Shown here one piece after another: positions 32,401-64,000 of a DNA stretch of 64,000 bases. Under the pieces are notes generated by a model that saw only the letters and a list, made by a program, of their open reading frames with translations, searched no databases and had not been told where the DNA came from. Both the position numbers and the translations under genes were made by a program. Every line of letters begins with the position of its first letter. Position 1 is the first letter of the stretch. Source of the stretch: Macrosoma leucophasiata (Eukaryota > Arthropoda > Insecta > Lepidoptera > Hedylidae); the NCBI GenBank assembly GCA_036365455.1, contig JAWQUS010000008.1, positions 21,373,501-21,437,500 on the forward strand, in the 5' to 3' direction.

Positions 32401-35400
32401 TTGACCTTGGTCTTTGTGTGGATGTCTATAGGCTGCAGTCATCACTTAACACCAATGTGAACTGCAAGCTTGTTTGCCACTTCCATTACATAAAAAATCA
32501 TAAAAATGGCAACTGATTTGAGTTGTCAGTTCGATTTCGTTTACAGCATGGAGAATAAAGGGAACGAGTACTAACTGATATGTAAGAGAAATTGAAAAAG
32601 TGTCCAGCGTGCCGCTGTAAATAAAGTTTCTAGTATCTGCCACAATAGCCCTAGCGCTCCAAAACACGATTATGAATTTAAGTGTCGTACGCGAGTGAAG
32701 TGTGAATTTTACTACCTCAAATATTTGCGTAATCTTAAACAATCAATAATGACTCTAACCCCTAGTTTGCACTCAAAACATTAAACATGATGATGATTCG
32801 CAACTTGTCGCATAAAGTATGTATTGCGATGAATGTCTTGTTGGTGCTAGCGTTCGCACTGCTGTCAAACCTATCATTTTAACATGTTTTTATGTGAATG
32901 TTTCATCAATGCAAACTCATTGTAACAAAAAAAAACTGAATTGAAAGACTAAATGATATAATCTGTAGTGAACTCTGAATAAAATTTAAAATCTTATGCT
33001 TTCATAGCGCCACCCGTATTTGTTATGTTTTGCTTTTTCAATATAGAGATCTCTTCATTGTCCATTGTTGAAAGACAACACGTGGGGAAAATTTTCAACA
33101 ATTTTGATGTTTCATTTCAAGTTAACAGGATGGGGTTAATGACTACGAATCGTTATCCTGTCGAAGTCGACAGACCCCACTTTTTATGATCGATACTTAT
33201 TCTTATCCTGCAGACGTACATGACCTTTTATGTAAAGGCTATGAAGACGCGAGAAAACTGCGTAGGTATAAAAATTGTCTGACGATTTATTAATGCAAGT
33301 ATTTTTTGACAGGGAACCGGGTTCTGTCTTACGGAGGAACGCTATCATTGAGACAGAAATATGAGACTGGTGGCTATCCTGACCAATCAATGCCAGGAAA
33401 AGATGTGATACTAATCAGTGATGAGATTTCCCTATATTGGTCAAATCCTACACCAATAAAAGCCAATGAGTCTCTGGTAAGATTAAAAAAATATCTATTA
33501 ATTTTTTTAAAGTATTAGTTGTGTACATTATCCCACTTGTACTATAAGAATAGAGCCAATTTTCACGTTTTTTACACGTGTCAGTCCTGCTCAGTGAACA
33601 TGTTCGTGCACAAGTGTGTAGTATTGTGCACATACAAAAGTTACGCACAGTTTTGACAGTAGTGAACATGTTCGTGCACAATTGTGTAGTATTGTGCACA
33701 TACGAAAGTTACGCACAGTTTTGACGGTAGTGAACATGTTCGTGCACAAGTGTATAGTATTGTGCACATACAAAAGTTACGCACATTTTTGACGGTAGTG
33801 AACATGTTCGAGCACAAGTGTATAGTATTGTGCACATACAAAAGTCAGGCACAGTTTTGACGGTAGTGAACATGTTCGTGCACAAGTGTATAGTATTGTG
33901 CACATACAAAAGTTACGCACAGTTTTGACGGTAGAGAACATGTTCGTGCACAAGTGTGTAGTATCGTGCACATACAACGGTTACGCACAGTTTTGCCGGG
34001 AGTGAATATGTTCGGACAAACGTGTGTAGTATTGTGCACAAAATTCTAGCCTTACAGGGCTAACGTTACTCGGATGGTTCAGTATCTCTCCTCTACTACA
34101 GAAGAAGAAACGTAGGCACGTGGCCTGATAATCTGGTGAAGGTCGAAGTAAATCGCTGGATGAGGGCAGCCCACGACCGTTCGTTGTATCAATCTCTTGG
34201 AAGAAGTCAATTTAATTGAATTATATGTTTCAGAGCTATCAAGTACCTCTTGTAGAAAATGGATGGTACATTCTCGATTCAGCTTTACGAGCCAGTCGCC
34301 ATGACTTCATGGGTGTTCTCAGCAACCTTAGACGTGTTCTTGTGAGAGCCACCTTATCGCCATACATCTATTCCACCTCCATCGCTGACGTATCAATGGA
34401 CACCGCCACTGAGAGCAATGACCCCGACTTGCCAGTTGCCAAGGGTGTTGAGGTAAATATTTTTCAAATTTTTCATCATAAATATCATATGACATGTATA
34501 CTTCTGTAATTTAATAAACGCACACACTGAAAATATTTGGTTCAGAATCGATAACCGAATCGATTTCAGGCATTTTAATATAGGTATTTGTTTATCTCAA
34601 AATTATGTACCTTCGTTAAATACTTACACTTATTTAGTGATTAGTCCATATAAATGAGACTTAAGTCCACCTGTTAAAAGCTTTATAATATACAAGTCCA
34701 AATGAGTTCAATTAAAATTAAAAAAAAAAAAAAAACAAAAACTGAAATTTATTCCTAGCGTAACAAAATTTAACAAATTGGTGATCTTCAGGAACGCACA
34801 CAGTAACAAGTATAAGTGACAATAACAGAAGTACACATACAAAATTAGATCACCAATATCCAATATCCAAAAAAAGGCGATTTCTTTCAGACATTCTAAC
34901 GTTCGGTATACCGAGCACTAAAGCCTCGAGAAATTTGTAGTTTTAAAGTATAGTAAGTAGTTTTTGTAGTTTTAAAGTATAGCAAAAAGAGTACACTTCA
35001 ACACTTATAGAACCCTACGTTCTTAAGTTCATATCTCCATCTGCCGCAGATTCGACTGTAATACGTTAAATCGTACCGTATATACTAAAAGCACAGCTAG
35101 TTCATAATTTAATTTAAATGTTATAGGTTAGGATCCCATTGCAAAATAATTTAGTTTATCCAGATATGCTGCAAACCTATTTAATACGCATATTTATAAT
35201 TTAGAGAATATATATTATATCTACTAGGTTGCCTATCAAAAAATGGCCTCAAGTATTTTTTATATTTTTGTTTTGGGAAAGATTTTTATTTATTTGTTCT
35301 TTCAATAAAATATCGTCCACCTCACGGCAATATGTATTAAGATTCTGAGAAATCACGTCTGCCGTGGCGCACTTGGCCGACCCTACGTATTTTCGTTCCG

Positions 35401-38400: not shown

Positions 38401-41400
38401 AGTCGTTTGGACGTGAAAAGGTGACAGACAGACAGACAGACAGAGTTACTTTCGCATTTATAATATTAAAGTAGGGATTAGTAAGTTATTCGCAAACGGA
38501 TTTCGGTATTTTATGAACTATTTGAACTTGTAGATGCATAGCTTCGAACCGCGCTGGAAGCAGAGACGTAACAGCAATCGTGAACGTTCAACGCAAGTCG
38601 CCTTGGCAGCCGCGGGAACTAATCACAATATCGCCAACCTCGCCCAGCGTCGCCGAAGGCCAGAGCACAAACGTGATCTGCACCGGGACACCGGACATAC
38701 CTGCTGGCTCCTTGGAATGGATAAGGTGAATTTATTTTAACATGCATGGATGGGCATGGCCCCGCCTCTGGCGTAGGTCGGAAGCGATCTGCTCGGTTAA
38801 GCACTACGGGTGCGGTCGGGTAGTGTGATGGATGACCGCTAGTGGCAAATTAAATGCGCGTTTCCGTGCTTCGGAGGGCACGTTAAGCCGTCGGTCCCGG
38901 TTGCTTTCGACAGATAGCAGTCGTTAAACCTTGTCGGAGGCCTTATTTGAAAGGCGATTTGAAAACATCCGACAGCGGGTTGGCCACTAACCCACCCACC
39001 TCCACCAATTCACATTGGAGCAGCGTGGTGGAGTAAGCTCCAGGTCTCGCCCCCCAAAAAAAGGGGAGAGATTCGTGCCCAGCAGTGGGACGTATAATGG
39101 GTTGCCATTATTATATTATATTATTATTTTAACATTCACGAACGAATTTTATACTAATTTTAGCAAGTGACTTTTACTGGTGGTAGATCTCCAGTGACGG
39201 AGCTCGTAGGCGTAGACATCACCGCATTACCTAATATACTTGCCGCTAAATGGTAGTGTTCAGCACTATCGTGTTTCGGTCAGGTGGTAATGTACGGCCC
39301 TGTAATTTCCGGCACAGAGGCATAAGACATTTTATTTAAAGAAAAATGGAAAGAAAAAATTGACTTCAGGCGAGACTCGAACTCGCGGCCTACTGGGAAT
39401 CTAGTCCAGCCGCTCTTCCAATTGAGCTACTGAAGTCCTGCCCGATTTGTCAAATCTTTCCTTCACATTTATTGCATTGCTTTATGGTAGCAGCAGCGCC
39501 ATTTATTGCCAACTATGCTAGTTAGGCAACCGATATTATAGACTTTGCAGTTTATTGAATATCGTAAAGAAGTCGCTTTTACCCTTAATAATTGTTTTAT
39601 ATTATTTCGCATTAACACATGCTTGTGAAATATATTTTATTTAAAGAAAATGGAAAGAAAAATTTCAAATTTTTCTTTCCATTTTTCTTAATTTCAAATT
39701 TTTTTTAAAGAAAAATTTCAAAATGTTCTTTCCATTTTTTTAAATAAAATATATTTCACAAGCATGTGTTAATGCGAAATAATATAAAACAATTATTAGA
39801 GGCATAACACGTTAGGTCTCAGGAGTGGTAACGCATCTGCATTTTGACCTTCGTCTTCGTGTGGGTGTCTATAGGCTGCAGTCATCACTTAACATCAACG
39901 TGAAGTGCATGCTTGTTTGCCACTTCCATTACACAAAAAATAAGGGAAAATTTTAATTTTCACTTTGGGATTACAACTATTACAAGTTCACGGTGTGTAG
40001 GCAGAGAATATGTAATAATACTACGTATAGAATGGACATTTCGACATCCCGCCCGATTTGCTCGCATCACTCAACCCCTTCCCCTCTTATGGGCGACGGT
40101 TGGTATTTTGTACGTGCTACGCACACAGGTGCGTGTGTAAATACACGTCACTGATTGATGTCTGTTAAAGAAACCAAATTAAGCGTTTGTATGGAATTTT
40201 GGTGGAGTGTTCGCGGTGTGGTGTAGGCATACATTTTATATGTTTTTTATATGAAGAAGACTCAGACTAAAGGAATAAGAATAGACGGACTGCTTACGAA
40301 TACCGATTGACGTCGTCGAATTCAATACCAAATTGGAAGTGGTATTGCAATCGGCTCGCAGTAATTGTGAACCGTCTAAGGTAGCGCACGTCAGACATCC
40401 AAAATCAAAATATTTACTTAGTCCTCAGTGGGTCATGAAAAAATGTAAAAACACATCAGGAAATCTGAAAAAGAGGAGTTTGTCAAGTTATGGCTAAATA
40501 TTACAAAGACAATAAATTTAATATTTAATATTTTATTTCATACTAGCTGTGCCCGCGACTACGTCCGCGTGGAAATTTATGATTCTTCAGTATCTACCCA
40601 GACGAAGTCGTTGGCGAAGCTAATATAAAAGTAGCCTAAGTTACTCCTTATTACATAAGCTATCTGCCAGTGAAAGTCCCGTCAAAATCGGTCCAGCCGT
40701 TCCCGAGATTAGCGGGAACAAACAGACAAATAGACAGACATAAATTATAATAAATGTTGTTTTGGTATATGTACCGTGTATACATTTAGTAAAAAGCGGT
40801 TATTTTTATATTACAAACAGACAATCCAATTTTATTCATTTGTTACTTAATTGACAAATATTTTTTTTTTCACTTTTTTCTAATAATAGGCAGTCGGGGC
40901 CCCAGGTCGCCCTAGGTTTTATTATTAATGGACAATGTAAACTTAAATTAAAACATAAAATTTATAATTTTATAATTTTGACATGTCATCAGCATGCATC
41001 TATGAAATTGTGTATACATTGAGTGGTTTTAATTTCGCACGATTATTTCGCAGACAAGACGGAACCCCGCTGTTACAAAACGTAAAGTCCATCAACGGTG
41101 TGTTGACCATACGAAACGCGGTTCTTGACAACCAAGGCGTATACTTGTGTCAGAGCATATCGGCTTCTTACGTACAACCTGGAGCTGTCACGATAAACGT
41201 CTTTACCACAAGGACATATGATGAGCCCAACGTTACACTGTCCAAAAATTCTCTCTCGATACCTACTGGCGAGATTGGCACCATCGAATGTACGCCGCGT
41301 GGATATCCGCTGCCGCAGATCATATGGAAGAAAGTACGTATTAACTATATATATATTATTATGCTGGTGGTAGAGATCCAGTGACGGAGCGGGCGTAGGC

Positions 41401-42999: not shown

Positions 43000-43072
<73 letters not shown>

Positions 43073-46000
43073 AGCTTATTATTATATATTGGCAACCTAT
43101 TGGATATATATTCTCTAGATTATAAATATGCATAAAAATTAAGTTTGCAGCATATCTGGATGAACGAAATGATTCTGCAGTGAGAACCTAACCTGTAAAA
43201 GTGTAACTGGGCCTCAAACAAGCCATGTCCATTTCACAGGTTCAAGAGCATAGTAGTGAACGACGAAGGTGAATACATTTGCACCGCTCAGAATGTGGCT
43301 GGATCGGCGAGCGCCAGTACAGTGATAAAAGTGAGGTCCTCACCTGAAATCACGCTGATGCCGAGTGATTACATGGAGGCCGAAGTGGGACAACAAGTTC
43401 GTGTAGAATGCAGAGCCGATGGTTATCCAGAACCACAGGTTTCCATCAAGCGTGGTTCGGGTATGTGTTGAATTGGTTCATTATTAATAGAGAAACATTA
43501 TACTACATATTTTTTAAAGTGCGATTATTATGTCTTATGATTCGGTATTGATAGTATAAGATATTTAATCCTAGATCCCTTATCTTAACCCACTTATGAT
43601 ATGTCAGAAATATGTATATGTATATAATAGGTAATGTCAGTTTACACATATCATCTTATTCTATGTTTAAATCTAAGTAGGTACTGTACAATGTAGGTAC
43701 TATACTACTAATTGCACAACACTTCAATGCAGACGTTCGGGCGGTTGACAGTTGGAACCGCAATAGAGAGAATATGCATAAAATTTAAAATTGTCTCAAA
43801 TATTTTTTTCTCGAATACTTATCAACGTCATATTATAATTACAAAGTTCTTTTTTAATTTACTAATTATTTAATGCCATTAAATATTATGTAAATAGTGC
43901 AAAATAAGGGAACGAAATTCAAACTTCCAAAACGCGCCGCCATTGGTCGAGACGAAATAACACTTTGTCTGGTGTTTTCCTAATACTATTTTTGCACTTA
44001 GGTACTATACAATACTTGTAAGATGGCTTTTTCCTTCTTCTTTCTTTTTTTGCTTCTTCCATGATTTGTAGAGCAATTAAAATTGAAAATACGTATGAAG
44101 TAACACAAAAGTTTAGAGTAAAAAACACTCGACGTGTGTTGTGACGTCACAACACACGTCGTCAAAATGACGGCGTTTGAAGAGCTCAAATTTACTCAAT
44201 GTTTTAAATTTCACTTTGAAAAATAACTATAAATATTTTCAGGCCTATTTATAATTTTTCTACGATATACATATACAAGGAAATGATTAATTTAAGACGA
44301 AAAAAAATTTCATGAATATTCCCTATTGTCAAAGTGCCGCGTTTTCGAGGGCCGGTACAAATAATTATATGGAAAACATCTCGTCGCACCCGCCCACTGC
44401 CCGCTAAATTCGAGGCAGCGGCCAAAGTGCTTTAATAATGACATTTGACTCTTTATTTCCAGATTATAATGACCGCGTCGTAGTAGTACAACCATCACCG
44501 AGATCAGCAATTTTAATGATACGCTCCGTAAGTGAAAGCGACGCCGGTGATTACACCTGCATCGCTTCATCAGGAGCAGACACCATTGAAAACCAGTTCG
44601 TTATACGAGTAGAAAGCAGAATAGGTTCGTATGTAGTTCGTAGTATCACTCTACCCAAAAGACGTCTACTGCTAGCGTACAACACTGTCGTGGACGTTTC
44701 TATAGAACAAAAACGCCCAAGACAGTGTATTTTTTTAGTTTAGTTTATAATCTTTATTTTATTGAATGATTATGGCAAATCAATGTGCATTTTTTCCTCT
44801 AACTCTGATACTGGATTCTCATTTAATAATACGTAATGTAAATGCCCGTATGCAGAAGGCAGTGGTGATCCAGAACCGTTCTCACCGGAGCCCAGACCTA
44901 ACAACATGATCGCAATTGAAGGCCAGAATAGTCGAATCAGGTAAGTCTTCAGATATATCTAATTTACAAAAATCTCGTCTCACAGTAATTATTATCATAC
45001 TCTTTAATATCAAAATATTTCCAGACAAGTTAAATTATTGGTCTAATAATGATATTATTATTTATGTATTGAATAAAGAATGAATAGTAAAAAATATTGT
45101 TCTTCAATAATCAAATGTTATATTAAAATAACAATATAATATGTTTACTACCGTTAATTATATATATGTATTTATAATAAAGTAAAGGCTATTTTAATAT
45201 TGTACTGTATTGCAGCTGTCAAACATCAGACGAATTCGAAGTGATGTGGACCAGACGTGACCGCCAACCTCTGCAATATAACGCGAGACAGGAAGGAACA
45301 GAATTAATCATCTACAATGTAAGTTTGTTTAATAAATTTGTATAAAAAATTATATATGCCTCAATAGGTACCCCCTTATTCATAAACGTTCATTAGATAT
45401 GTTTTAGCTATAGAATGCTTTGTCTTTGTCAGTTGCATTGTCAAATGTGCAGGATAGAAAAAAGACAAAGGAGAAATTAGCAACACTTTAGCTAAAATAC
45501 GTTTATGAATAAGTGGGTTAGTATTCAGTAGTTATAATTCTTTGTTAACTTTAAAAACTTTAGTAAACATTTCATGCACTTGATTAAAGTAATTTAGGTA
45601 CCTAATTTTAAATTAAATATCAACGTAATTTAATTTTAAATAAATTAAAAAGAAATCGGTGCGTAAAAACTTTTGTAAGCATTTTATTTGGAACTAAAAT
45701 TAATGAAGTGTTCTTTTTTAATTTTAGTCTTCAAAAAGTGACAACGGACAGTACGAGTGTATTCTTATCAACCGAATGACTAAGGAAACAGAAAAATCTG
45801 CCTACACCAGCCTCCTCGTGATGGCTCCTCCTACTATCAGCCTGCGACCAAAGTCCCAGACCGTCCAACCTGGTCAATCCACTGTAGTGGAATGTGTCGT
45901 GAGCGGAGACGATATTATGAGCATCTTATGGAGGCCTCTCTCTAAAACACCTTCCAGGTAAGTATTTAAGGATACCAGATAGCGTTTTTATAATGTATGT

Positions 46001-48759: not shown

Positions 48760-51104
48760 GTAAATCAGTTGTCGGGTGTAACTGGTTGTGTGGTTCTGTC
48801 TGTTTGTCCAGGTTCATAATGTATGTGCCACAGGTTATATTAGAACAGAAATTGTTGTTGGAACGGTTTTATATGTCTGTCAATAACTAGCTATTTTACC
48901 CAAATTGTTTTCTATAGTTAAATATGGGTCGGTTAAACCTGATCATTTTATATTGCGAAATCAGTAAGGTAAAACTACGGAACGATAGTGTTTTTAGTGA
49001 TTAATCCTCCATTTCTGAGACAAAAATTATAGTATAGATCAAAATTTTAATCTGTATTGTTCTATAAAAAAGGAGATGTAGAAATTACGTCTGGGAGTTT
49101 TGGCGCAAACCTTGAAAGAGGCGTGTGGTGCTCTTATTTTATTTCATTTTCTTCGTGTATTTTTAAGTTATATTAAATAGAGTTGGTGGCATTTTGTTTG
49201 ATATAGGCTTATAACAGTGCCCGTGTATAGTGAGATATAGTGAATAATAGTGCGAAAACACGTCCTTTCGGGTTGCCGCCAGAACTTCATTGTTAATGTT
49301 GTGGTAAAGTAGCCATCGCTTTACTTGAATTACCTACTGTGACTGACTGACGGACTGATAAATTGACTGACTGACTCTGACTTTTACGCTGCTTATTACG
49401 AATACGGAATATCGTTTTACTTGGCAATATGCGTTATAGCGATGCCATAATAATAATAAAAAAATCACGTCTGAAAGTACTTGTCCGGCTCCAAAATAGG
49501 GAAGAATAACTATTCATGACTATTTTTTTTCTTTTTTGAGACTTTTTCATAAATATTCATTGGTGTGAAAATAGAAAACACGACAGGATATCTAAGCATA
49601 CTATAATTTTTATTATGATGGTTACTGTTTTTTTTATTTGTATTCAGATCTTTTTATATTTAAGCTTAAAATGCATATGCGCAATTGGTGATTTTAAACA
49701 GACTTCTATCCAAACTGTGAATCTTTTTATCAGCGATCTATTACTTAACTGGACTTTATTTAGCCTTTCTGATATCTTTTCCTGTTCTATGGGCAATATT
49801 TCGTGTTTCTGTGTCTGTGATGTGTCTATATAAAATAATATTGTGGGTTTATAAAAGATGATACTTTAGCTTTAGAGTGATAAATCAACAAATTCAACAA
49901 GCATTTATAGTTATGCGATATTTTAGGCGAATAATACGATCCTTGTTGATTTCTTTTGCAAGCTTAGGTAGCGTAAGCGTGTGATAGGTAAGTATGTTTT
50001 GTTTTGTAAATAAATGGTACAGGCATTCAAAAAAACTTATCCCTTTAAGCACTGTTAACTGGAGTCCCTACTACAATCAATGTATGGCGTGTGAAACATT
50101 GCGAAATGTAATATTTATATTTATTTATAAATTCCGTATTAGTTCGACATATTGTTTCAATGTACTCGTCTGTATATCAAAATTTGCATGCTCCAATGTT
50201 CCATGCACGTACGGTATACATTTGGGTAACAGATTTATGGTACAAGGTATAAAATACAAGGTAATACCGAAATATAACAATCACTTGAATGTACTTGATA
50301 GATTAAAATACATTTTCATATTTTTAACCGACTCCAAAAAAAGGAGGCGGTTCTCAATCAGTCCGAATCTTTTTTCTTTTTTTTATGTTTGTTCATAGTA
50401 ATAAATATCATCATCAATCAATTTTGTTACCACTTATATCACAAGATTTAATAATACACTCGACGGAGTACAATATATACCATCGTCACTGCGATTAGTA
50501 TATATACACACCAAGCGTATAGATATCGATGATATCGATACCATCAATATATTCTTTATAACGTGAACAGTATCGATACTGTTGATACCTTAAATCGTTA
50601 TTTCCAATTCCTTGGTCGTATTATCAAGTTTCTAGCGATCGATAGTATCCAAATGTTGACTTTATCATGAGGTGAATCGATGTTAAGCGGTTTTATTAGA
50701 ATCGTTCCGTAGACTGTGGTCGATATAAGTTATATAGTCAAATATCCATCAATATACTAGTAGAGTATGTGTCTATTACCGAGGCATGTTGATAAGTAGC
50801 CAATTTAAAAGTCCTGTCCTAATCTCACAATCTTTTACATAGGCTTCTTATCAATATGCCTCTGTAATAGATTATATGCCTCGGTCATTTCCATAACCTT
50901 TTAAAGGATCGGAGCCGTAACGTAAGAATTGATACCTTTCTTCTACACGTTAGGGAACGTAGCCATACTACGTGACGCGTTCATATGGGAAAGAGGTCTT
51001 TAAAAATACCACGCTTGGTCACAGGAGCGGGGTCGCGGGGAGGCTCTGTGAACTTGGCATCCGACCTTGATTTTTTTTTTCTTTTTTTGGCTTAAATGAT
51101 AGAT
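48760..51104 (+). other. Start of the last visible intron
   Basis: Repeat pair member at 49378, a cluster of TATCGAT motifs at 50518-50590 and a MITE at 50770. No laminin-G or EGF exon found. Long minus/plus ORFs here (for example 49994-50398) show no known domain. Confidence 0.6.
50770..50872. repeat. Fold-back MITE
   Basis: ctattaccgaggcatgttga and its near inverse tcaatatgcctctgtaatag, with inner pairing taagtagcc / ggcttctta. Confidence 0.8.
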
Positions 51105-51339
51105 TAGGGTATGTAGTAGATAGTAGTGAACGTAATTTCGTTTGTAGTAGTACCAAAAAAAAAATAAAAAAATTTAAAAAAATGTCATCCCCCGACATGA
51201 AAAAAATAATTTTTTTTTGGCTGTTTCTAATAGGTATGCGTAAGTAGTTGTTTGTAGTAAAAGAATTTTCGTTTGTAGTTAAACAGTTTTTTTTTTACAA
51301 ATTTTTTTTTTTTTAGAGTTTTTAAAAAGCGTTTTCTTA
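51105..51339 (+). repeat. Degenerate satellite border
   Basis: Scattered pieces of the satellite (gtttgtagtaaaagaatttt, cgtttgtagttaaac) among long T and A runs; marks the decayed left edge of the array. Confidence 0.75.
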
Positions 51340-54300
51340 TTACTACAATCGCTAAATACGACAGAAGGCAGTCCGTAGAGGTTTGTAGTGAAAGAGTTTT
51401 CGTTTGTAGTAAGCCCGAAGTTGTAAAAAAGTGACCTGATTATGTAAATCTGGTATGGGAGGTATGTTGACTGAACTACTTATGTATGACGGACTTGTCG
51501 ATTACTACAAACGTCTAAAATGATAGAAGGAGGTCCCTAGAGGTTTGTAGTGAAAGAATTTTCGTTTGTAGTAAGCTCGAAGTTGTAAAAAAAGTGACCT
51601 GATTATGAAAATCCGGTATGGGAGGTATGTCGACGGTATAACTTACGGTTGATGTACTTGACGACTACAACAAACGTCTGAAATGATAGAGGAAGGTCCG
51701 TAGAGGTTTGTAGTGAAAGAATTTTCGTTTGTAGTAAGCTCGAAGTTGTAAAAAAAGTAACGTGATTATGTAAATCCGGTATGGGAGGTATGTTGACCGA
51801 ACTGCTTATGTTTGATGGACTTGGCGATTACTACAAACGTCGAAAATGATAGAGGGAGGTCCCTAGAGGTTTGTAGTGAAAGAATTTTCGTTTGTAGTAA
51901 GCTCGAAGTTGTAAAAAAAGTGACGTGATTATGTAAATCTGGTATGGGAGGTATGTTGACTGAACTGCTTATGTTTGATGGACTTGGCGATTACTACAAA
52001 CGTCGAAAATGATAGAGGGAGGTCCCTAGAGGTTTGTAGTGAAAGAATTTTCGTTTGTAGTAAGCTCGAAGTTGTAAAAAAAGTAACCTGATTATGTAAA
52101 TCTGGTATGGGAGGTATGTTGACGGAACTACTTATGTTTGACGGACTTGGCGATTACTACAAACGTCTGAAATGATAGAGGGAGGTCCGTAGAGGTTTGT
52201 AGTGAAAGAATTTTCGTTTGTAGTAAGCTCAAAGTTGTAAAAAAAGTGACCTGATTATTAAAAATCCGATATGGGAGGTATGTCGACAGAATAATTTACG
52301 GTTGATGGACTTGTCGACTACTACAAACGTCTGAAATGATAGAGGGAGGTGCGTAGAGGTTTGTAGTGAAAGAATTTTCGTTTGTAGTAAGCTCGAAGTT
52401 GTAAAAAAAGTGACGTGATTATGTAAATCTGGTATGGGAGGTATGTTGACTGAACTACTTTTGTTTGACGGACTTGTCGATTACTACAAACGTCTAATAT
52501 GATAGAAGGAAGTCCCTAGAGGTTTGTAGTGAAAGAATTTTCGTTTGTAGTAAGCTCGAAGTTGTAAAAAAAGTGACCTGATTATGTAAATCTGGTATGG
52601 GAGGTATGTCGACGCAATAACTTACGGTTGATGGACTTGTCGACTACTACAAACGTCTGAAATGATGAAGGGAGGTGCGTAGAGGTTTGTAGTGAAAAAA
52701 ATTTTCGTTTGTAGTAAGCTCGAAGTTGTAAAAAAAGTAACCTGATTATGTAAATCTGGTATGGGAGGTATGTTGACTGAACTGCTCATGTTTGATGGAC
52801 TTGGCGATTACTACAAACGTCTGAAATGATAGAGGCAGGTTCATAGAGGTTTGTAGTGAAAGAATTTTTGTTTGTAGTAAGCTCGAAGTTGTAAAAAAAG
52901 TGACCTGATTATGTAAATCTGGTATGGGAGGTATGTTGACTGAACTACTTATGTTTGACGGACTTGTCGATTACTACAAACGTCCAAAATGATAGAAGGA
53001 GGTCCCTAGAGGTTTGTAGTGAAAGAATTTTCGTTTGTAGTAAGCTCGAAGTTGTAAAAAAAGGGACGTGATTATGTAAATCTGGTATGGGAGGTATGTT
53101 GACTGAACTACTTATGTTTGACGGACTTGTCGATTACTACAAACGTCTAAAATGATAGAGGGAGGTGCGTAGAGGTTTGTAGTGAAAGAATTTTCGTTTG
53201 TAGTAAGCTCGAAGTTGTAAAAAAAGGGACGTGATTATGTATATCTGGTATGGGAGGTATGTTGACTGAACTGCTCATGTTTGATGGACTTGGCGATTAC
53301 TACAAACGTCTGAAATGATAGAGGCAGGTTCATAGAGGTTTGTAGTGAAAGAATTTTTGTTTGTAGTAAGCTCGAAGTTGTAAAAAAAGTGACCTGATTA
53401 TGTAAATCTGGTATGGGAGGTATGTTGACTGAACTACTTATGTTTGACGGACTTGTCGATTAGTACAAACGTCTAAACTGATAGAGGGAGGTCCCTAGAG
53501 GTTTGTAGTGAAAGAATTTTCGTGTGTAGTAAGCTCGAAGTTGTAAAAAAGGTGACCTGATTATGAAAATCCGATATAGGAGGTATGTCGACGGAATAAT
53601 TTACGGTTGATGGACTTGTCGACTACTACAAACGTCTGAAATGATAGAGGGAGGTCCGTAGAGGTTTGTAGTGAAAGAATTTTCGTTTGTAGTAAGCTCG
53701 AAGTTGTAAAAAAAGTGACGTGATTATGTAAACCTGGTATGGGAGGTATGTTGACTGAACTGCTTATGTTTGATGGACTTGGCGATTACTACAAACGTCG
53801 AAAATGATAGAGGGAGGTGCGTAGAGGTTTGTAGTGAAAGAATTTTCGTTTGTAGTAAGCTCGAAGTTGTAAAAAAAGGGACGTGATTATGTAAATCTGG
53901 TATGGGAGGTATGTTGACTGAACTACTTATGTTTGACGGACTTGTCGATTACTACAAACGTCTAAAATGATAGAGGGAGGTGCGTAGAGGTTTGTAGTGA
54001 AAGAATTTTCGTTTGTAGTAAGCTCGAAGTTGTAAAAAAAGTGACCTGATTATGAAAATCCGGTATGGGAGGTATGTCGACGGTATAAGTTACGGTTGAT
54101 GTACTTGACGACTACTACAAACGTCTAAAATGATAGAAGGAGGTCCCTAGAGGTTTGTAGTGAAAGAATTTTCGTTTGTAGTAAGCTCGAAGTTGTAAAA
54201 GAAGTAACCTGATTATGTACATCTGGTATGGGAGGTATGTCGACGCAATAACTTACGGTTGATGGACTTGTCGACTACTACAAACGTCTGAAATGATAGA

Positions 54301-57000
54301 GGGAGGTGCGTAGAGGTTTGTAGTGAAAGAATTTTCGTTTGTAGTAAGCTCGAAGTTGTAAAAAAAGTAACCTGATTATGTAAATCTGGTATGGGAGGTA
54401 TGTTGACTGAACTGCTCATGTTTGATGGACTTGGCGATTACTACAAACGTCTGAAATGATAGAGGGAGGTGCGTAGAGGTTTGTAGTGAAAGAATTTTCG
54501 TTTGTAGTAAGCTCGAAGTTGTAAAAAAAGTGACCTGATTATCAAAATCCGATATGGGAGGTATGTCGACGGAATAATTTACGGTTGATGGACTTGTCGA
54601 CTACTACAAACTTCTGAAATGATAGAGGGAGGTGCGTAGAGGTTTGTAGTGAAAGAATTTTCGTTTGTAGTAAGCTCGAAGTTGTAAAAAAAGTGACCTG
54701 ATTATCAAAATCCGGTATGGGAGGTATGTCGACGGAATAATTTACGGTTGATGGACTTGTCGACTACTACAAACGTCTGAAATGATAGAGGGAGGTGCGT
54801 AGAGGTTTGTATTGAAAGAATTTTCGTTTGTAGTAACCTCGAAGTTGTAAAAAAAGTGACCTGATTATGAAAATCCGGTATGGGAGGTATGTCGACGGTA
54901 TAACTTACGGTTGATGTACTTGACGACTACAACAAACGTCTGAAATGATAGAGGAAGGTCCGTAGAGGTTTGTAGTGAAAGAATTTTCGTTTGTAGTAAG
55001 CTCGAAGTTGTAAAAAAAGTGACCTGATTATGTAAATCTGGTATGGGAGGTATGTTGACTGAACTACTTATGTTTGACGGACTTGGCGATTACTACAAAC
55101 GTCTGAAATGATAGAGGGAGGTCCGTAGAGGTTTGTAGTGAAAGAATTTTCGTTTGTAGTAAGCTCGAAGTTGTAAAAAAAGTGACGTGATTATGTAAAT
55201 CTGGTATGGGAGGTATGTTGACTGAACTGCTTATGTTTGATGGACTTGGCGATTACTACAAACGTCGAAAATGATAGAGGGAGGTGCGTAGAGGTTTGTA
55301 GTGAAAGAATTTTCGTTTGTAGTGAGCTCGAAGTTGTAAAAAAAGTGACCTGATTATGAAAATCCGGTATGGGAGGTATGTCGACGGTATAAGTTACGGT
55401 TGATGTACTTGACGACTACTACAAACGTCTAAAATGATAGAAGGAGGTTCCTAGAGGTTTGTAGTGAAAGAATTTTCGTTTGTAGTAAGCTCGAAGTTGT
55501 AAAAAAGTGACCTGATTATGTAAATCTGGTATGGGAGGTATGTTGACTGAACTACTTATGTTTGACGGACTTGGCGATTACTACAAACGTCTAAAATGAT
55601 AGAGGGAGGTGCGTAGAGGTTTGTAGTGAAAGAATTTTCGTTTGTAGTAAGCTCGAAGTTGTAAAAAAAGTGACCTGATTATGTAAATCTGGTATGGGAG
55701 GTATGTTGACTGAACTGCTTATGTTTGATGGACTTGGCGATTACTACAAACGTCTGAAATGATAAAGAGAGTTGCGTAGAGGTTTGTAGTGAAATAATTT
55801 TCGTTTGTAGTAAGCTCGAAGTTGTAAAAAAAGTGACCTGATTATGAAAATCCGGTATGGGAGGTATGTCGACGGTATAACTTACGATTGATGTACTTGA
55901 CGACTACTACAAACGTCTGAAATGATAGAGGGAGGTGCGTAGAGGTTTGTAGTGAAAGAATTTTCGTTTGTAGTAAGCTCGAAGTTGTAAAAGAAGTAAC
56001 CTGATTATGTAAATCTGGTATGGGAGGTATGTCGACGCAATAACTTACGGTTGATGGACTTGTCGACTACTACAAACGTCTGAAATGATAGAGGGAGGTG
56101 CGTAGAGGTTTGTAGTGAAAGAATTTTCGTTTGTAGTAAGCTCGAAGTTGTAAAAAAAGTAACCTGATTATGTAAATCTGGTATGGGAGGTATGTTGACT
56201 GAACTGCTCATGTTTGATGGACTTGGCGATTACTACAAACGTCTGAAATGATAGAGAGAGGTGCGTAGAGGTTTGTAGTGAAAGAATTTTCTTTTGTAGT
56301 AAGCTCGAAGTTGTAAAAAAAGTGACCTGATTATGAAAATCCGATATGGGAGGTATGTCGACGGAATAATTTACGGTTGATGGACTTGTCGACTACTACA
56401 AACGTCTGAAATGATAGAGGGAGGTCCCTAGAGGTTTGTAGTGAAAGAGTTTTCGTTTGTAGTAGGCTCAAAGTTGTAAAAAAGTGACCTGATTATGTAA
56501 ATCTGGTATGGGAGGTATGTTGACTGAACTGCTTATGTTTGATGGACTTGGCGATTACTACAAACGTCTGAAATGATAGAGGGAGGTGCGTAGAGGTTTG
56601 TAGTGAAAGAATTTTCGTTAGTAGTAAGCTCGAAGTTGTAAAAAAAGTGACCTGATTATGTAAATTTGAATATTGAATAGTTGAATATTAGTTGATATAT
56701 TGAATATTTGATAGAATAACTTACGGTTGATGGACTTGTCGACTACTACCAACGTCTGAAATGATAGAGGGAGGTCTGTAGTTGTTTGTAGTGAAAGAAT
56801 TTTCGTTTGTAGTAAGTTCGAAGTTGAAAAAAAAGTGACCTGATTATGAAAATCTTGTATGAGAGGTATGTTGACTGAACTACTTATGTTTGATGGACAT
56901 GGCGATTACTACAAATGTCTAAAATGATGAACGGAGGACCGTAGAGGTTTGTAGTGAAAGAATTTTCGTTTGTAGTAAGCTCGAAGTTGTAAAAAAAGTG
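51340..57000 (+). repeat. 163-bp satellite array, left arm (~35 units)
   Basis: Unit starts (gtttgtagtgaaagaatttt) recur every 162-164 bp. Two main unit classes differ in the middle third: gttgactgaactacttatgt versus gtcgacggtataacttacgg, with subclasses. Near-identical higher-order segments occur 1,792 bp (11 units) apart (54213 and 56005). One unit at 56665-56735 carries an AT-rich replacement. No gene inside. Confidence 0.97.
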
Positions 57001-57662
57001 AGTTAACCAACCAAATGTATTTGAAACCAAAAGTTTTAAACATATAAAATAGGTGTTTGAGGTTTATTGGTAACAGATAGGTGCAGTTACTTATATTTAC
57101 TTACCTGTTTACACCCCCTTGCCAGGTACCTAGTCATGAACATTAATACTAAGGCAATACCTTACAGACGTATTTTATATGTCTTAAACTTTAAGTTTCA
57201 AACACATTTAATTGGAAATTAACAAATAGAAGAATTTTTTTTTCTTTATAATTATACCTATGAACATAATTATATAGGCAATACTAGCAAGACGTGTCCG
57301 TTCATGTATGAAATGTGTTAAAAAAAAATGGTTAATTCGGTAAACAGATAGGTGAAGGTCGACCTAGGTTCGGCTCATAGACTATTCCGATTGTCGGTGA
57401 GTCGGTGAGTAGTGTGCGTTGACGCATACATTTCCGAACGTTCCATTTTTCACCGATTATCGGTCGGGATATACCGATTTTATTTTTCACCGACTTTTTG
57501 TAGGACGTGGGCGTTGCACTATGGCTATTAGTACATTCTATTTTCCTCCTAATACCTGTGTAGTTTGTACTTTAAAAGTATACTTAAATGGCGCACGTGA
57601 TATCTCGTACTGAACTTGTCTTGTTGTGTAAAATATGCGAAATTTCGTAAATGTGGAAATTA

Positions 57663-57757
57663 GTGGTAGAGCTCGCTCAGCACCACCGCATTACATTTAC
57701 CTGTTGTTCAAAGATAGTGGAAATGTACGGTGGTAGAGCTTTAATGATAGAGCTCGA
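57663..57757 (+). repeat. Element A fragments in the palindrome spacer
   Basis: Two short pieces (agtggtagagctcgctcagc, caccaccgcattac, then cggtggtagagctttaatga). They lie at the geometric centre of the satellite palindrome. Confidence 0.5.
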
Positions 57758-57835
57758 AGGAATGCAAATATTAATATCAAAATAAATTTGGGTCGGTATG
57801 TAAGGTGATGGATAGCCTTTAATGAAGGTTATAAA

Positions 57836-58217
57836 TTTTGTGGTTTCTTGGGAAAGCGATTAAGAAAATAACAGCCATTTTCAGATCCAATATGGAGGAG
57901 AGATTTTGTTTCAAATTATGATATGGGTGTCTATATTCGAGGTTTTTTGAGGCGTTGATTACGAAAATAATATCTTTTATCAGATACAAGATGGCGGACA
58001 TAATTACTTTTCCAAATTAAGATATGACTGTCAATTTCGTGGTTTCTTGGTGTGCTGATTACGAAAATAGCATCTGTTTTCAGAACCAAAATAGCGGACC
58101 GATTGTTTTTTTTTTTCAAAATATGATATAGGCGTCAATTTTGAGATTTCTTGGGGAGCTGATTACGAAAATGACATCTTTTTGAGATCCAAGTTGGCGG
58201 ACATAATTATTTTCCAA
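57836..58217 (+). repeat. ~100-bp tandem repeat, ~3.8 units
   Basis: Starts ggtttcttgggaaagcgatt, recurring at about 57941, 58041 and 58144 with shared tgattacgaaaat and gatggcggacataatta-type strings. Confidence 0.85.
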
Positions 58218-58234
58218 AAACAACAAATCGGGCA

Positions 58235-58310
58235 GGACTTCAGTAGCTCAGTTGGAAGAGCGGCTGGACTAGATTCCCTGAAGGCCGCGAGTTCGAGTCT
58301 CGCCTGAAGT
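58235..58310 (+). tRNA. tRNA-like segment (pseudogene or SINE head)
   Basis: Acceptor stem acttcag/ctgaagt, perfect box A tagctcagttgg, D stem gctc/gagc, T arm gagttcgagtctc. The anticodon stem pairs poorly (ctggactagattccctg), so no amino acid is assigned. Same unit and flanks as 39363-39437 minus. Ends 35 bp from the right satellite arm. Confidence 0.5.
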
Positions 58311-58344
58311 AAATTTTACTTTCCATTTTTCTTTTAATAAAACA

Positions 58345-61300
58345 GATTTACACAATCAGGTCAGTTTTTTTACAACTTCGAGCTTACTACAAACGAAAAT
58401 TCTTTCACTACAAACCACTACAGACCTCCCTCTATCAGTTTAGACGTTTGTAGTAATCGACAAGTCCGTCAAACGTATTATAAGTAGTTCCGTCAACATA
58501 CCTCTCATACCAGATTTACATAATCAAGTTACTTTCTTTACAACTTCGAGCTTACTACAAACGAAAATTCTTTCACTACAAACCTCTACGGACCTTCCTC
58601 TATCATTTCAGACGTTTGTAGTAGTCGTCAAGTACATCAACCGTAACTTATACCGTCGACATACCTCCCATACCGGATTTTCATAATCAGGTCACTTTTT
58701 TACAACTTTGAGCTTACTACAAACGAAAATTCTTTCACTACAAACCTCTACGCACCTCCCTCTATCATTTCAGACGTTTGTAGTAGTCGACAAGTCCATC
58801 AACCGTAAGTTATTCCGTCGACATACCTCCCATACCAGATTTACATAATCAGGTTACTTTTTTACAACTTCGAGCTTACTACAAACGAAAATTCTTTAAC
58901 TACAGACCTCTAGGGACCTCCCTCTATCAGTTAAGACGTTTGTAGTAATCGACAAGTCCGTCAAACATAAGTAGTTCAGTCAACATACCTCCCATACCAG
59001 ATTTACATAATCAGGTCACTTTTTTTACAACTTCGAGCTTACTACAAACAAAAATTATTTCACTACAAACCTCTATGAACCTGCCTCTATCATTTCAGAC
59101 GTTTGTAGTAATCGCCAAGTCCATCAAACATGAGCAGTTCAGTCAACATACCTCCCATACCAGATTTACATAATCAGGTTACTTTTTTTACAACTTCGAG
59201 CTTACTACAAACGAAAATTTTTTTCACTACAAACCTCTACGCACCTCCCTTCATCATTTCAGACGTTTGTAGTAGTCGACAAGTCCATCAACCGTAAGTT
59301 ATTGCGTCGACATACCTCCCATACCAGATTTACATAATCAGGTCACTTTTTTTACAACTTCGAGCTTACTACAAACGAAAATTCTTTCACTACAAACCTC
59401 TAGGGACCTCCTTCTATCATTTTGGACGTTTGTAGTAATCGACAAGTCCGTCAAACATAAGTAGTTCAGTCAACATACCTCCCATACCAGATTTACATAA
59501 TCAGGTCACTTTTTTTACAACTTCGAGCTTACTACAAACAAAAATTCTTTCTTTACAAACCTCTATGAACCTGCCTCTATCATTTCAGACGTTTGTAGTA
59601 ATCGCCAAGTCCATCAAACATGAGCAGTTCAGTCAACATACCTCCCATACCAGATTTACATAATCACGTCACTTTTTTTACAACTTCGAGCTTACTAAAA
59701 ACGAAAATTCTTTCAATACAAACCTCTACGCACCTCCCTCTATCATTTTCGACGTTTGTAGTAGTCGTCAAGTACATCAACCGTAAGTTTTACCGTCGAC
59801 ATACCTCCCATACCGGATTTTCATAATCAGGTCACTTTTTTTACAACTTCGAGCTTACTACAAACGAAAATTCTTTCACTACAAACCTCTAGGGACCTCC
59901 TTCTATCATTTTAGACGTTTGTAGTAATCGACAAGTCCGTCAAACATAAGTAGTTCAGTCAACATACCTCCCATACCAGATTTACATAATCACGTCACTT
60001 TTTTTACAACTTCGAGCTTACTACAAACGAAAATTCTTTCACTACAAACCTCTACGCACCTCCCTCTATCATTTCAGACGTTTGTAGTAGTCGACAAGTC
60101 CATCAACCGTAAATTATTCTGTCGACATACCTCCCATATCGGATTTTTAATAATCAGGTCACTTTTTTTACAACTTTGAGCTTACTACAAACGAAAATTC
60201 TTTCACTACAAACCTCTACGGACCTCCCTCTATCATTTCAGACGTTTGTAGTAATCGCCAAGTCCGTCAAACATAAGTAGTTCCGTCAATATACCTCCCA
60301 TACCAGATTTACATAATCAGGTTACTTTTTTTACAACTTCGAGCTTACTACAAACGAAAATTCTTTCACTACAAACCTCTAGGAACCTCCTTCTATCATT
60401 TTAGACGTTTGTAGTAGTCGTCAAGTACATCAACCGTAACTTATACCGTCGACATACCTCCCATACCGGATTTTCATAATCAGGTCACTTTTTTTACAAC
60501 TTCGAGCTTACTACAAACGAAAATTCTTTCACTACAAACCTCTAGGGACTTCCCTCTATCATTTTCGACGTTTGTAGTAATCGCCAAGTCCATCAAACAT
60601 AAGCAGTTCAGTCAACATACCTCCCATACCAGATTTACATAATCACGTCACTTTTTTTACAACTTCGAGCTTACTACAAACGAAAATTCTTTCACTACAA
60701 ACCTCTACGCACCTCCCTCTATCATTTCAGACGTTTGTAGTAGTCGACAAGTCCATCAACCGTAAATTATTCCGTCGACATACCTCCCATATCGGATTTT
60801 CATAATCAGGTCACTTTTTTTACAACTTCGAGCTTACTACAAACGAAAATTCTTTCACTACAAACCTCTACGCACCTCCCTCTATCATTTTAGACGTTTG
60901 TAGTAATCGACAAGTCCGTCAAACATAAGTAGTTCAGTCAACATACCTCCCATACCAGATTTACATAATCACGTCCCTTTTTTTACAACTTCGAGCTTAC
61001 TACAAACGAAAATTCTTTCATTTCAAACCTCTAGGGACCTCCCTCTATCATTTTCGACGTTTGTAGTAATCGCCAAGTCCATCAAACATAAGCAGTTCAG
61101 TCAACATACCTCCCATACCGGATTTTCATAATCAGGTCACTTTTTTTACAACTTCGAGCTTACTACAAACGAAAATTCTTTCACTACAAACCTCTACGGA
61201 CCTTCCTCTATCATTTCAGACGTTTGTAGTAATCGACAAGTCCGTCAAACATAAGTAGTTCAGTCAACATACCTCCCATACCAGATTTACATAATCAGGT

Positions 61301-64000
61301 CACTTTTTTACAACTTCGAGCTTACTACAAACGAAAATTCTTTCACTACAAACCTCTAGGGACCTCCCTCTATCATTTTAGACGTTTGTAGTAATCGACA
61401 AGTCCGTCAAACATAAGTAGTTCAGTCAACATACCTCCCATACCAGATTTACATAATCAGGTCACTTTTTTTACAACTTCGAGCTTACTACAAACGAAAA
61501 TTCTTTCACTACAAACCTCTACGCACCTCCCTCTATCATTTCAGACGTTTGTAGTAGTCGACAAGTCCATCAACCGTAAGTTATTGCGTCGACATACCTC
61601 CCATACCAGATTTACATAATCAGGTTACTTCTTTTACAACTTCGAGCTTACTACAAACGAAAATTCTTTCACTACAAACCTCTAGGAACCTCCTTCTATC
61701 ATTTTAGACGTTTGTAGTAGTCGTCAAGTACATCAACCGTAACTTATACCGTCGACATACCTCCCATACCGGATTTTCATAATCAGGTCACTTTTTTTAC
61801 AACTTCGAGCTTACTACAAACGAAAATTCTTTCACTACAAACCTCTACGCACCTTCCTCTATCATTTTCGACGTTTGTAGTAATCGCCAAGTCCATCAAA
61901 CATAAGCAGTTCAGTCAACATACCTCCCATACCAGATTTACATAATCACGTCACTTTTTTTACAACTTCGAGCTTACTACAAACGAAAATTCTTTCACTA
62001 CAAACCTCTACGGACCTCCCTCTATCATTTCAGACGTTTGTAGTAATCGCCAAGTCCGTCAAACATAAGTAGTTCAGTCAACATACCTCCCATACCAGAT
62101 TTACATAATCAGGTCACGTTTTTTACAACTTCGAGCTTATAACAAACAAAAATTCTTTCACTACAAACCTCTATGAACCTGCCTCTATCATTTCAGACGT
62201 TTGTAGTAATCGCCAAGTCCATCAAACATGAGCAGTTCAGTCAACATACCTCCCATACCAGATTTACATAATCACGTCACTTTTTTTACAACTTCGAGCT
62301 TACTACAAACGAAAATTCTTTCAGTACAAACCTCTACGCACCTCCCTCTATCATTTCAGACGTTTGTAGTAATCGCCAAGTCCATCAAACATGAGCAGTT
62401 CAGTCAACATACCTCCCATACCAGATTTACATAATCAGGTTACTTCTTTTACAACTTCGAGCTTACTACAAACGAAAATTCTTTCACTACAAACCTCTAG
62501 GAACCTCCTTCTATCATTTTAGACGTATGTAGTAGTCGTCAAGTACATCAACCGTAACTTATACCGTCGACATACCTCCCATACCTGATTTTCATAATCA
62601 GGTCACTTTTTTTACAACTTCGAGCTTACTACAAACGAAAATTCTTTCACTACAAACCTCTACGCACCTCCCTCTATCATTTTCGACGTTTGTAGTAATC
62701 GCCAAGTCCATCAAACATAAGCAGTTCAGTCAACATACCTCCCATACCAGATTTACATAATCACGTCACTTTTTTTACAACTTCGAGCTTACTACAAACG
62801 AAAATTCTTTCACTACAAACCTCTACGCACCTCCTTCTATCATTTCAGACGTTTGTAGTAGTCGACAAGTCCATCAACCGTAAATTATTCCGTCGACATA
62901 CCTCCCATATCGGATTTTCATAATCAGGTCACTTTTTTTACAACTTCGAGCTTACTACAAACGAAAATTCTTTCACTACAAACCTCTACGCACCTCCCTT
63001 TATCATTTTAGACGTTTGTAGTAATCGACAAGTCCGTCAAACATAAGTAGTTCAGTCAACATACCTCCCATACCAGATTTACATAATCACGTCCCTTTTT
63101 TTACAACTTCGAGCTTACTACAAACGAAAATTCTTTCACTACAAACCTCTACGCACCTCTCTCTATCATTTCAGACGTTTGTAGTAATCGCCAAGTCCAT
63201 CAAACATAAGCAGTTCAGTCAACATACCTCCCATACCAGATTTACATAATCACGTCACTTTTTTACAACTTCGAGCTTATTACAAACGAAAATTCTTTCA
63301 CTAGAAACCTCTAGGGACCTCCCTCTATCATTTTATATGTTTGTAGTAATCGACAAGTCCGTCAAACATAAGTAGTTCAGTCAACATACCTCCCATACCA
63401 GATTTACATAATCAGGTTACTTTTTTTACAACTTCGAGCTTACTACAAATGAAAATTCTTTCACTACAAACCTCTAGGGACCTCCCTCTATCATTTTCGA
63501 CGTTTGTAGTAATCGCCAAGTCCATCAAACATAAGCAGTTCGGTCAACATACCTCCCGTACCGGATTTACATAATCACGTCACTTTTTTTACAACTTCGA
63601 GCTTACTACAAACGAAAATTCTTTCACTACAAACCTCTACGGACCTTCCCCTATCATTTCAGACGTTTGTAGTAGTCGTCAAGTACATCAACCGTAAGTT
63701 ATACCGTCGACATACCTCCCATACCGGATTTTCATAATCAGGTCACTTTTTTTACAACTTCGAGCTTACTACAAACGAAAATTCTTTCACTACAAACCTC
63801 TAGGGACCTCCTTCTATCATTTTAGACGTTTGTAGTAATCGACAAGTCCTTCATACATAAGTAGTTCAGTCAACATACCTCCCATACCAGATTTACATAA
63901 TCAGGTCACTTTTTTACAACTTCGGGCTTACTACAAACGAAAACTCTTTCACTACAAACCTCTACGGACTGCCTTCTGTCGTATTTAGCGATTGTAGTAA
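58345..64000 (-). repeat. 163-bp satellite array, right arm (~35 units, reaches window end)
   Basis: Same unit as the left arm, inverted. Length to the window end (5,656 bp) equals the left arm (5,661 bp). The terminal ~165 bp is the inverse of 51340-51505 with one mismatch. Continuation past 64000 is unknown. Confidence 0.97.

Follow-up and report, generated by a model that had tools for sequence, protein, structure and literature searches.

A 163-bp satellite palindrome in Macrosoma leucophasiata is very probably a foldback transposon with satellite-like arms

The window analysed here is a 64,000-nucleotide stretch of the genome of the hedylid lepidopteran Macrosoma leucophasiata (GenBank assembly GCA_036365455.1, 616 Mb in 61 contigs; contig JAWQUS010000008.1, here C8, positions 21373501-21437500), and its right end is taken up by a giant palindrome of two inverted arrays of a 163-bp repeat. 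We conclude that this palindrome is almost certainly a non-autonomous foldback transposon of 13,257 bp with satellite-like arms (window 51042-64298, C8:21424542-21437798), inserted at TCGCGGGGA, likely by means of a Mutator-type transposase. Its inverted ends are long and built of tandem repeats, with the two arrays enclosed by mirrored flanking domains of 298 bp. Defined termini carry target-site duplications in seven of eight copies, and an empty site exists for the copy in the window. The family is dispersed, with common ends and variable arms (66 termini, 29 pairs), and the middle of the element has no conserved reading frame, the longest stop-to-stop frame wholly inside the window's spacer (57002-58342) being 79 amino acids.

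An earlier note on this DNA, made from the letters alone, had described two near-equal inverted arrays of one repeat family around a spacer of about 1.34 kb, and our measurements bear this out: the left array has 5,662 bp and the right 5,658 bp, 34.7 units each, with 1,341 bp between them. Tandem Repeats Finder calls the 163-bp arrays at 51374-56665 and 58343-64000. An anchor in the unit core occurs 35 times per arm, spaced by 162-164 bp except for two inner steps of 188 and 168 bp, and a 36th occurrence at 51245 falls within the left flanking domain. The outermost ends of the arms are inverse copies, as the note had stated, with one mismatch in 159 aligned bases and five in 489, and both diagnostic variants that it named are present. 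Examination of the adjoining 2.5 kb revealed that the palindrome extends 298 bp past each array, where 298 of 300 aligned bases mirror 51040-51339. The right flanking domain begins one base beyond the end of the window, and the coincidence of the window end with the exact edge of the array is fortuitous. The element starts with GGCTCTGTGAACTTGG at 51042, the complement of GGCTCTGTGAACTTGG closes it at 64298, and the 9-bp direct repeat TCGCGGGGA borders it on both sides.

A second copy of the locus on C8 is the state without the insertion. Its presence was indicated by a laminin-G search, which gave two nearly equal matches on C8, 294 kb apart. This copy (9 kb, C8:21142801-21151800) is 97.8% identical to window 46104-51041 and, further left, 96.8% identical to 43001-45997, and it passes directly into the sequence right of the element, where it is 98.5% identical; by block, identity over window 43001-51041 and beyond is 95-98.5%. 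At this empty site TCGCGGGGA occurs once (C8:21150765-21150773). Near the right end of the element lies a long terminal repeat (LTR) retrotransposon (about 64568-71158 in window coordinates), BEL/Pao-like by eye, which the alignment blocks suggest to be missing from the second locus copy.

The termini of the element recur throughout the genome. The terminal 25-mer, searched across the whole assembly with up to three mismatches allowed, hits 66 sites, 33 on each strand, and the reversed pattern used as a control hits none. When neighbouring termini on opposite strands were paired within 30 kb, 29 pairs faced inward, 19 of them spanning 6.3-23.7 kb and 10 spanning 1.0-3.7 kb, and eight ends stood single; only once do neighbouring termini less than 30 kb apart face outward, and these belong to two adjacent elements on C26. 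Besides the window copy, at least 28 further copies in the same assembly thus have both ends. A unit query gave at least 668 matches, the listed ones being on several contigs and mostly in plus and then minus orientation, and a flanking-domain query at least 48, at least 41 of them near full length and the window's own two included. Eight copies were read at both ends, namely seven long ones, A to G (A being the window's), and a 3.7-kb copy on C11. Target-site duplications are present in all seven long copies, of 9 bp in A, D, E and F and of 10 bp in B, C and G. An ordinary head-to-tail satellite array was rejected as a description, since in these seven copies the arrays lie between termini with such duplications.

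Six of the copies (A, B, D, E, F and G) have one and the same spacer sequence, with 95-99% identity over the main aligned blocks and two short blocks at 90% and 94% in the comparison with F. For the spacer of A against the other five, the main blocks reach 95-97%, and one short block with F is at 90%. The orientation is plus in A and D and minus in B, E, F and G; copy C has no spacer, and its arrays abut directly. A 521-bp spacer query matches in full in at least 11 places, the window included, and in pieces in copy F, and its first half is also part of an abundant dispersed repeat. One of the full matches is an older copy (C8:310471-316768), of which the 5-kb stretch C8:309501-314500 was examined. 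A piece of spacer is visible in a copy on C24, and the right terminus is gone from a C21 copy, of which 1.2 kb was examined. At the left end of the window's spacer, a pair of 57-bp inverted repeats (57007-57215) falls in about 210 bp that are present in the A and D spacers and missing from those of B, E, F and G. tRNA-Ser(AGA)-like sequences occur in the window at 58237-58311 and 39361-39437, and 5 of the 20 loci sampled contain matches to them. Nineteen arbitrary 10-kb genome stretches contained copies of this tRNA-Ser-like repeat and no copy of the 163-bp unit, and the repeat core had no match in the viral contigs or the bacterial and archaeal contigs searched. A literature search of titles and opening abstracts returned no description of the 163-bp repeat or of a lepidopteran foldback element, which is no claim that none exists.

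The earlier note had proposed a private event, namely one inverted duplication of a local satellite array; an inversion within one array is a variant of the same idea. Such an event would account for arms that are inverted copies of equal length with matching outer units, but the termini with their 9-bp duplication and the empty site speak against it, as do relatives on many contigs, the recurrence of these termini, outer units and spacer on other contigs, the unequal arms of six other measured copies and a unit order that is not mirrored past the first three units. We consider it highly improbable. The match between outermost units recurs in copies on other contigs and is therefore not the trace of a local duplication, and the equal arm lengths of the window copy are a coincidence, because in the six other copies measured the arms are unequal. 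An origin by simple inversion of one half of an array was likewise rejected, since the outermost units of both arms are of the edge type. There is also very little to be said for a palindrome created by assembly or by foldback reads: only one assembly bears on it, such repeats assemble poorly and unit counts may be off, but the arms are not co-linear past about 520 bp, a spacer separates them, and the same ends form 29 inward-facing pairs, with duplications that match in seven of the eight copies read at both ends. Arms joined only at an assembly breakpoint, which the note had named as a way in which its reading could fail, are very unlikely because the structure recurs in other contigs.

Having identified the palindrome as a foldback element, we compared its arms within and between copies. 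The left and right arrays hold 34.7 and 34.7 units in A, 58.6 and 37.4 in B, 23.9 and 22.4 in C, 20.6 and 44.6 in D, 26.6 and 45.4 in E, 50.4 and 33.5 in F, and 19.7 and 30.4 in G, a range of 19.7-58.6 units or 3.2-9.6 kb of array per arm. Since arm lengths differ within six of the seven copies, by 1.5 to 24 units, the arms likely change independently. A 34 x 34 matrix of the units of copy A shows units 1-3 to be co-linear between the arms (1, 2 and 2 differences); beyond unit 3, near-identical units lie at scattered offsets, same-rank identity nears background by unit 4, and the longest exact match between the arms, 350 bp, connects left unit 8 with right unit 29. Among five outer arms (A left, A right, B left, C right and D right, all ten pairs), same-rank identity starts at 95-99% (unit 1) and 94-100% (unit 2) and by units 4 to 6 or so has sunk to 90-92%, the background level between units of different rank. 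The inner array edges of A and D have no unit order in common.

All 11 multi-member unit clusters of copy A (single linkage, 2.2%) mix both arms. The nearest neighbour of 58 inner units lies in the other arm for 32, in the same arm for 18 and is tied for 8, a bias not beyond that of shuffled labels (fraction 0.08); the three outermost units per arm, L33, L34, R33 and R34, and the two cut-off last units were left out of this test. Adjacent co-linear pairs between the arms number 7, compared with a mean of 2.0 and a maximum of 8 in 2,000 shuffles, which argues for blocks common to the arms and not for whole arms in common. Arms made identical throughout by conversion were rejected, as unit order differs. 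As to the proposal in the earlier note that conversion keeps the arms alike, exchange between the arms is plausible inside the arrays, but left and right flanking domains of one copy are not, as a rule, closest relatives. Left and right domains are clearly closest in D only (one of seven), tied in A and not closest in B, C, E, F and G, and in a flanking-domain tree B and E group left with left and right with right, with modest support and no fork at the strict mark.

It is likely that the element arrived at its present site with a many-unit array and that much of the array diversity predates the insertion, because units within copy A diverge by a mean of 8.3% (67 units) compared with 1.2% between the filled and empty flanks (60 of 4,921 ungapped bases), and because at a 2.2% threshold the 67 units still form 22 clusters by single linkage and 36 by complete linkage. 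Mosaic units from exchange, together with faster change in satellites, could inflate this apparent diversity. Alternatively, short-armed elements might have inserted at each site, with the arrays reaching their present length only afterwards. The lack of a common interior order among the compared copies, the differing arm lengths and the existence of short copies would agree with such growth, but the unit divergence and cluster numbers just given do not, and we regard it as a possibility of the lesser kind.

The flanking domain contains two partial copies of the unit core, of 36 and 50 bp, and the best-conserved 36-bp windows of the unit start at the core (mean minor frequency 0.013 compared with 0.058 overall; 67 units). 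We infer that this GTTTGTAGT-rich core, found again in the flanking domain and situated in the most conserved part of the unit, would be a transposase-binding site, multiplied in tandem. According to the mechanism that we propose, a Mutator-type transposase supplied from elsewhere in the genome would have inserted the element, with a many-unit array already on board, by cut and paste at the 9-bp TCGCGGGGA, which now lies on both sides. Unequal exchange and conversion would lengthen and shorten each arm independently, working in blocks and across the two arms as well, and only the two or three units at the outer end would stay fixed.

Mutator elements generate target-site duplications of about 8-11 bp, usually 9, and P-type elements duplications of 7-8 bp, that of Galileo being 7 bp. 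The 9- and 10-bp duplications of copies A to G agree with the former, and none of the seven has the P/Galileo length, which makes the family likely Mutator-like by this measure. No transposase-bearing copy was found, and therefore duplication length is the sole basis of the superfamily assignment. Mobilisation of a foldback element of another superfamily, such as a P/Galileo type, by its own class of enzyme is accordingly a rival to be weighed. It draws on the missing transposase and on Galileo, a member of the P superfamily with long, internally repetitive ends in the parts of the published accounts used here (PMC3573991, PMC3688188), but the seven duplication lengths argue against it. So do comparable elements linked to Mutator in the corresponding parts of their descriptions, Tetris, for which Mutator was suggested from 8-10-bp duplications (PMC4079207), and Tm1, which was placed there from a transposase and has duplications of 8-10 bp, commonly 9 (PMC3169594). 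A non-Mutator origin thus seems decidedly unlikely.

Several observations weigh against the reading of the palindrome as a Mutator-type foldback transposon, or against parts of it. The genome has 14 MULE-domain matches, 11 on contigs with termini and 3 on contigs without, and no transposase-coding copy of the family was found among them or in the 3.7-kb C11 copy; the nearest match to any terminus is 503 kb away, with none within 500 kb. This short copy (C11:4054211) has no matching duplication at its ends, and it holds an open frame that by eye resembles a piece of retrotransposon nuclease. The locus copy with the empty site may represent either the alternative haplotype, retained in the assembly, or a genuine, recent duplication. 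Relations among the flanking domains are mixed, and steady homogenisation between the arms is therefore not evident at the ends. The exact 36-bp window of the unit that is shared with the flanking domain starts one base before the best-conserved ones and ranks only 27th of 163 (0.024) because its first base is variable. Finally, the interiors were examined in a minority of the copies.

Drosophila FB (foldback) elements, with inverted tandem-repeat ends around a variable loop, are of a similar kind to the element described here. A closer likeness is to Tetris of Drosophila virilis, which, in the part of its published description used here, likewise combines a flanking domain, tandem repeats (about 220 bp in Tetris) and a non-coding middle, has 8-10-bp duplications where ours are 9-10 bp, has a stretch of 37 bp (36 bp here) common to flanking domain and repeat unit and is reported without a transposase (PMC4079207). 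Tetris repeats also form satellite-size arrays of up to 66 copies, reminiscent of the present arms, and fiber-FISH (fluorescence in situ hybridisation) placed some of these between two flanking domains (PMC4079207). The inverted repeats given for Tetris reach 1,735 bp, whereas the seven copies here have 3.2-9.6 kb of array per arm; and whereas its authors raise the possibility that transposition was disrupted by larger arrays, our long-armed copies retain their ends and duplications (PMC4079207). Judged by the description of its layout, the present family is built like Tetris but longer-armed. Galileo, as far as the cited portions go, also has long, internally repetitive inverted ends whose repeat number can differ between the arms of one copy, as here, although the longest ends named for D. 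mojavensis measure about 1.26 kb and contain two or three repeats (PMC3573991, PMC3688188). Its end repeats hold extra binding sites for the DNA-binding domain of the transposase, according to the part of that study drawn on (PMC3688188). Tm1 of Meloidogyne (Mutator/foldback) and Phantom resemble our family in that their inverted repeats are composite and vary in length and their duplications are commonly 9 bp; in the same partial account a putative transposase of the Phantom type is encoded by some Tm1 copies, whereas none was found here, and one element has 1,080 bp, compared with 6.3-23.7 kb for 19 of our 29 pairs (PMC3169594).

With regard to the host gene, the earlier note had placed the palindrome in an intron of trol. 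Eight open frames upstream on the plus strand were compared with Pfam, and seven matched, in the order three laminin-EGF, three immunoglobulin (Ig) and one low-density lipoprotein (LDL) receptor class A domain; the eighth had no Pfam match. The LDL-receptor class A exon is the last seen 5' of the element. On the right, a laminin-G match lies on the plus strand at C8:21451704, about 14 kb beyond the element, and two small downstream open frames gave no Pfam domain, so that an Ig exon reading there is by eye only. Because this order of domains upstream and downstream fits the perlecan/trol layout, an intron of a perlecan/trol-like gene is the most likely setting of the element, in line with the note. 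The note also predicted a multi-kilobase double-stranded RNA, should the palindrome be transcribed. Elsewhere in the window are a mariner-type transposase frame (12844-13494) and a reverse-transcriptase frame (15399-16865), with relatives of 97-99% identity in sampled stretches. A further tandem repeat, unconnected with the arms, has a unit of 68 bp and 6.6 copies (33593-34040).

Table 1. Features of the palindrome and its surroundings, in window coordinates
Feature	Position	Strand	Remarks
LDL-receptor class A exon, perlecan/trol-like gene	48587..48760	+	PF00057 in open frame 48555-48887; borders by eye
Left target-site duplication TCGCGGGGA	51033..51041	.	right copy 64299-64307 (C8:21437799-21437807), outside the window
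Left flanking domain of the terminal inverted repeat, starting GGCTCTGTGAACTTGG	51042..51339	+	mirror 64001-64298, outside the window
Diverged partial copy of the unit core in the flanking domain	51100..51149	+	local alignment score 40, maximum 26 in 100 base shuffles
Second partial copy of the unit core, 36 bp, 3 mismatches	51244..51279	+	score 57, maximum 24 in 100 base shuffles
Left array, 34.7 units of 163 bp	51340..57001	+	
Spacer (middle domain)	57002..58342	.	without a long reading frame; common to other copies, in either orientation
About 3.8 diverged copies of a 104-bp repeat in the spacer	57834..58218	+	Tandem Repeats Finder
tRNA-Ser(AGA)-like sequence at the spacer end	58237..58311	+	belongs to a dispersed repeat
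Right array, 34.7 units of 163 bp	58343..64000	-	edge is the window end

What had appeared an odd palindrome thus becomes a transposon family with clear bounds, 29 pairs of ends and an empty site, and with arms that far exceed the inverted repeats of the foldback elements compared here. On balance, and with some reserve, we favour the broader reading that the family jumps while carrying satellite-sized arms, dozens of units per move, and so plants finished inverted arrays, as elements of 6-24 kb, in gene-bearing DNA at one stroke, the arrays being renewed by block exchange inside each arm and from arm to arm while their outermost units stay fixed. If this is true, transposition, and not local amplification alone, would spread a satellite. 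With differently aged copies and independent arms within one genome, the family offers a test of how satellites originate and spread, and a 13-kb self-complementary insertion in a likely perlecan-like intron provides a natural case for questions of splicing, replication and silencing.

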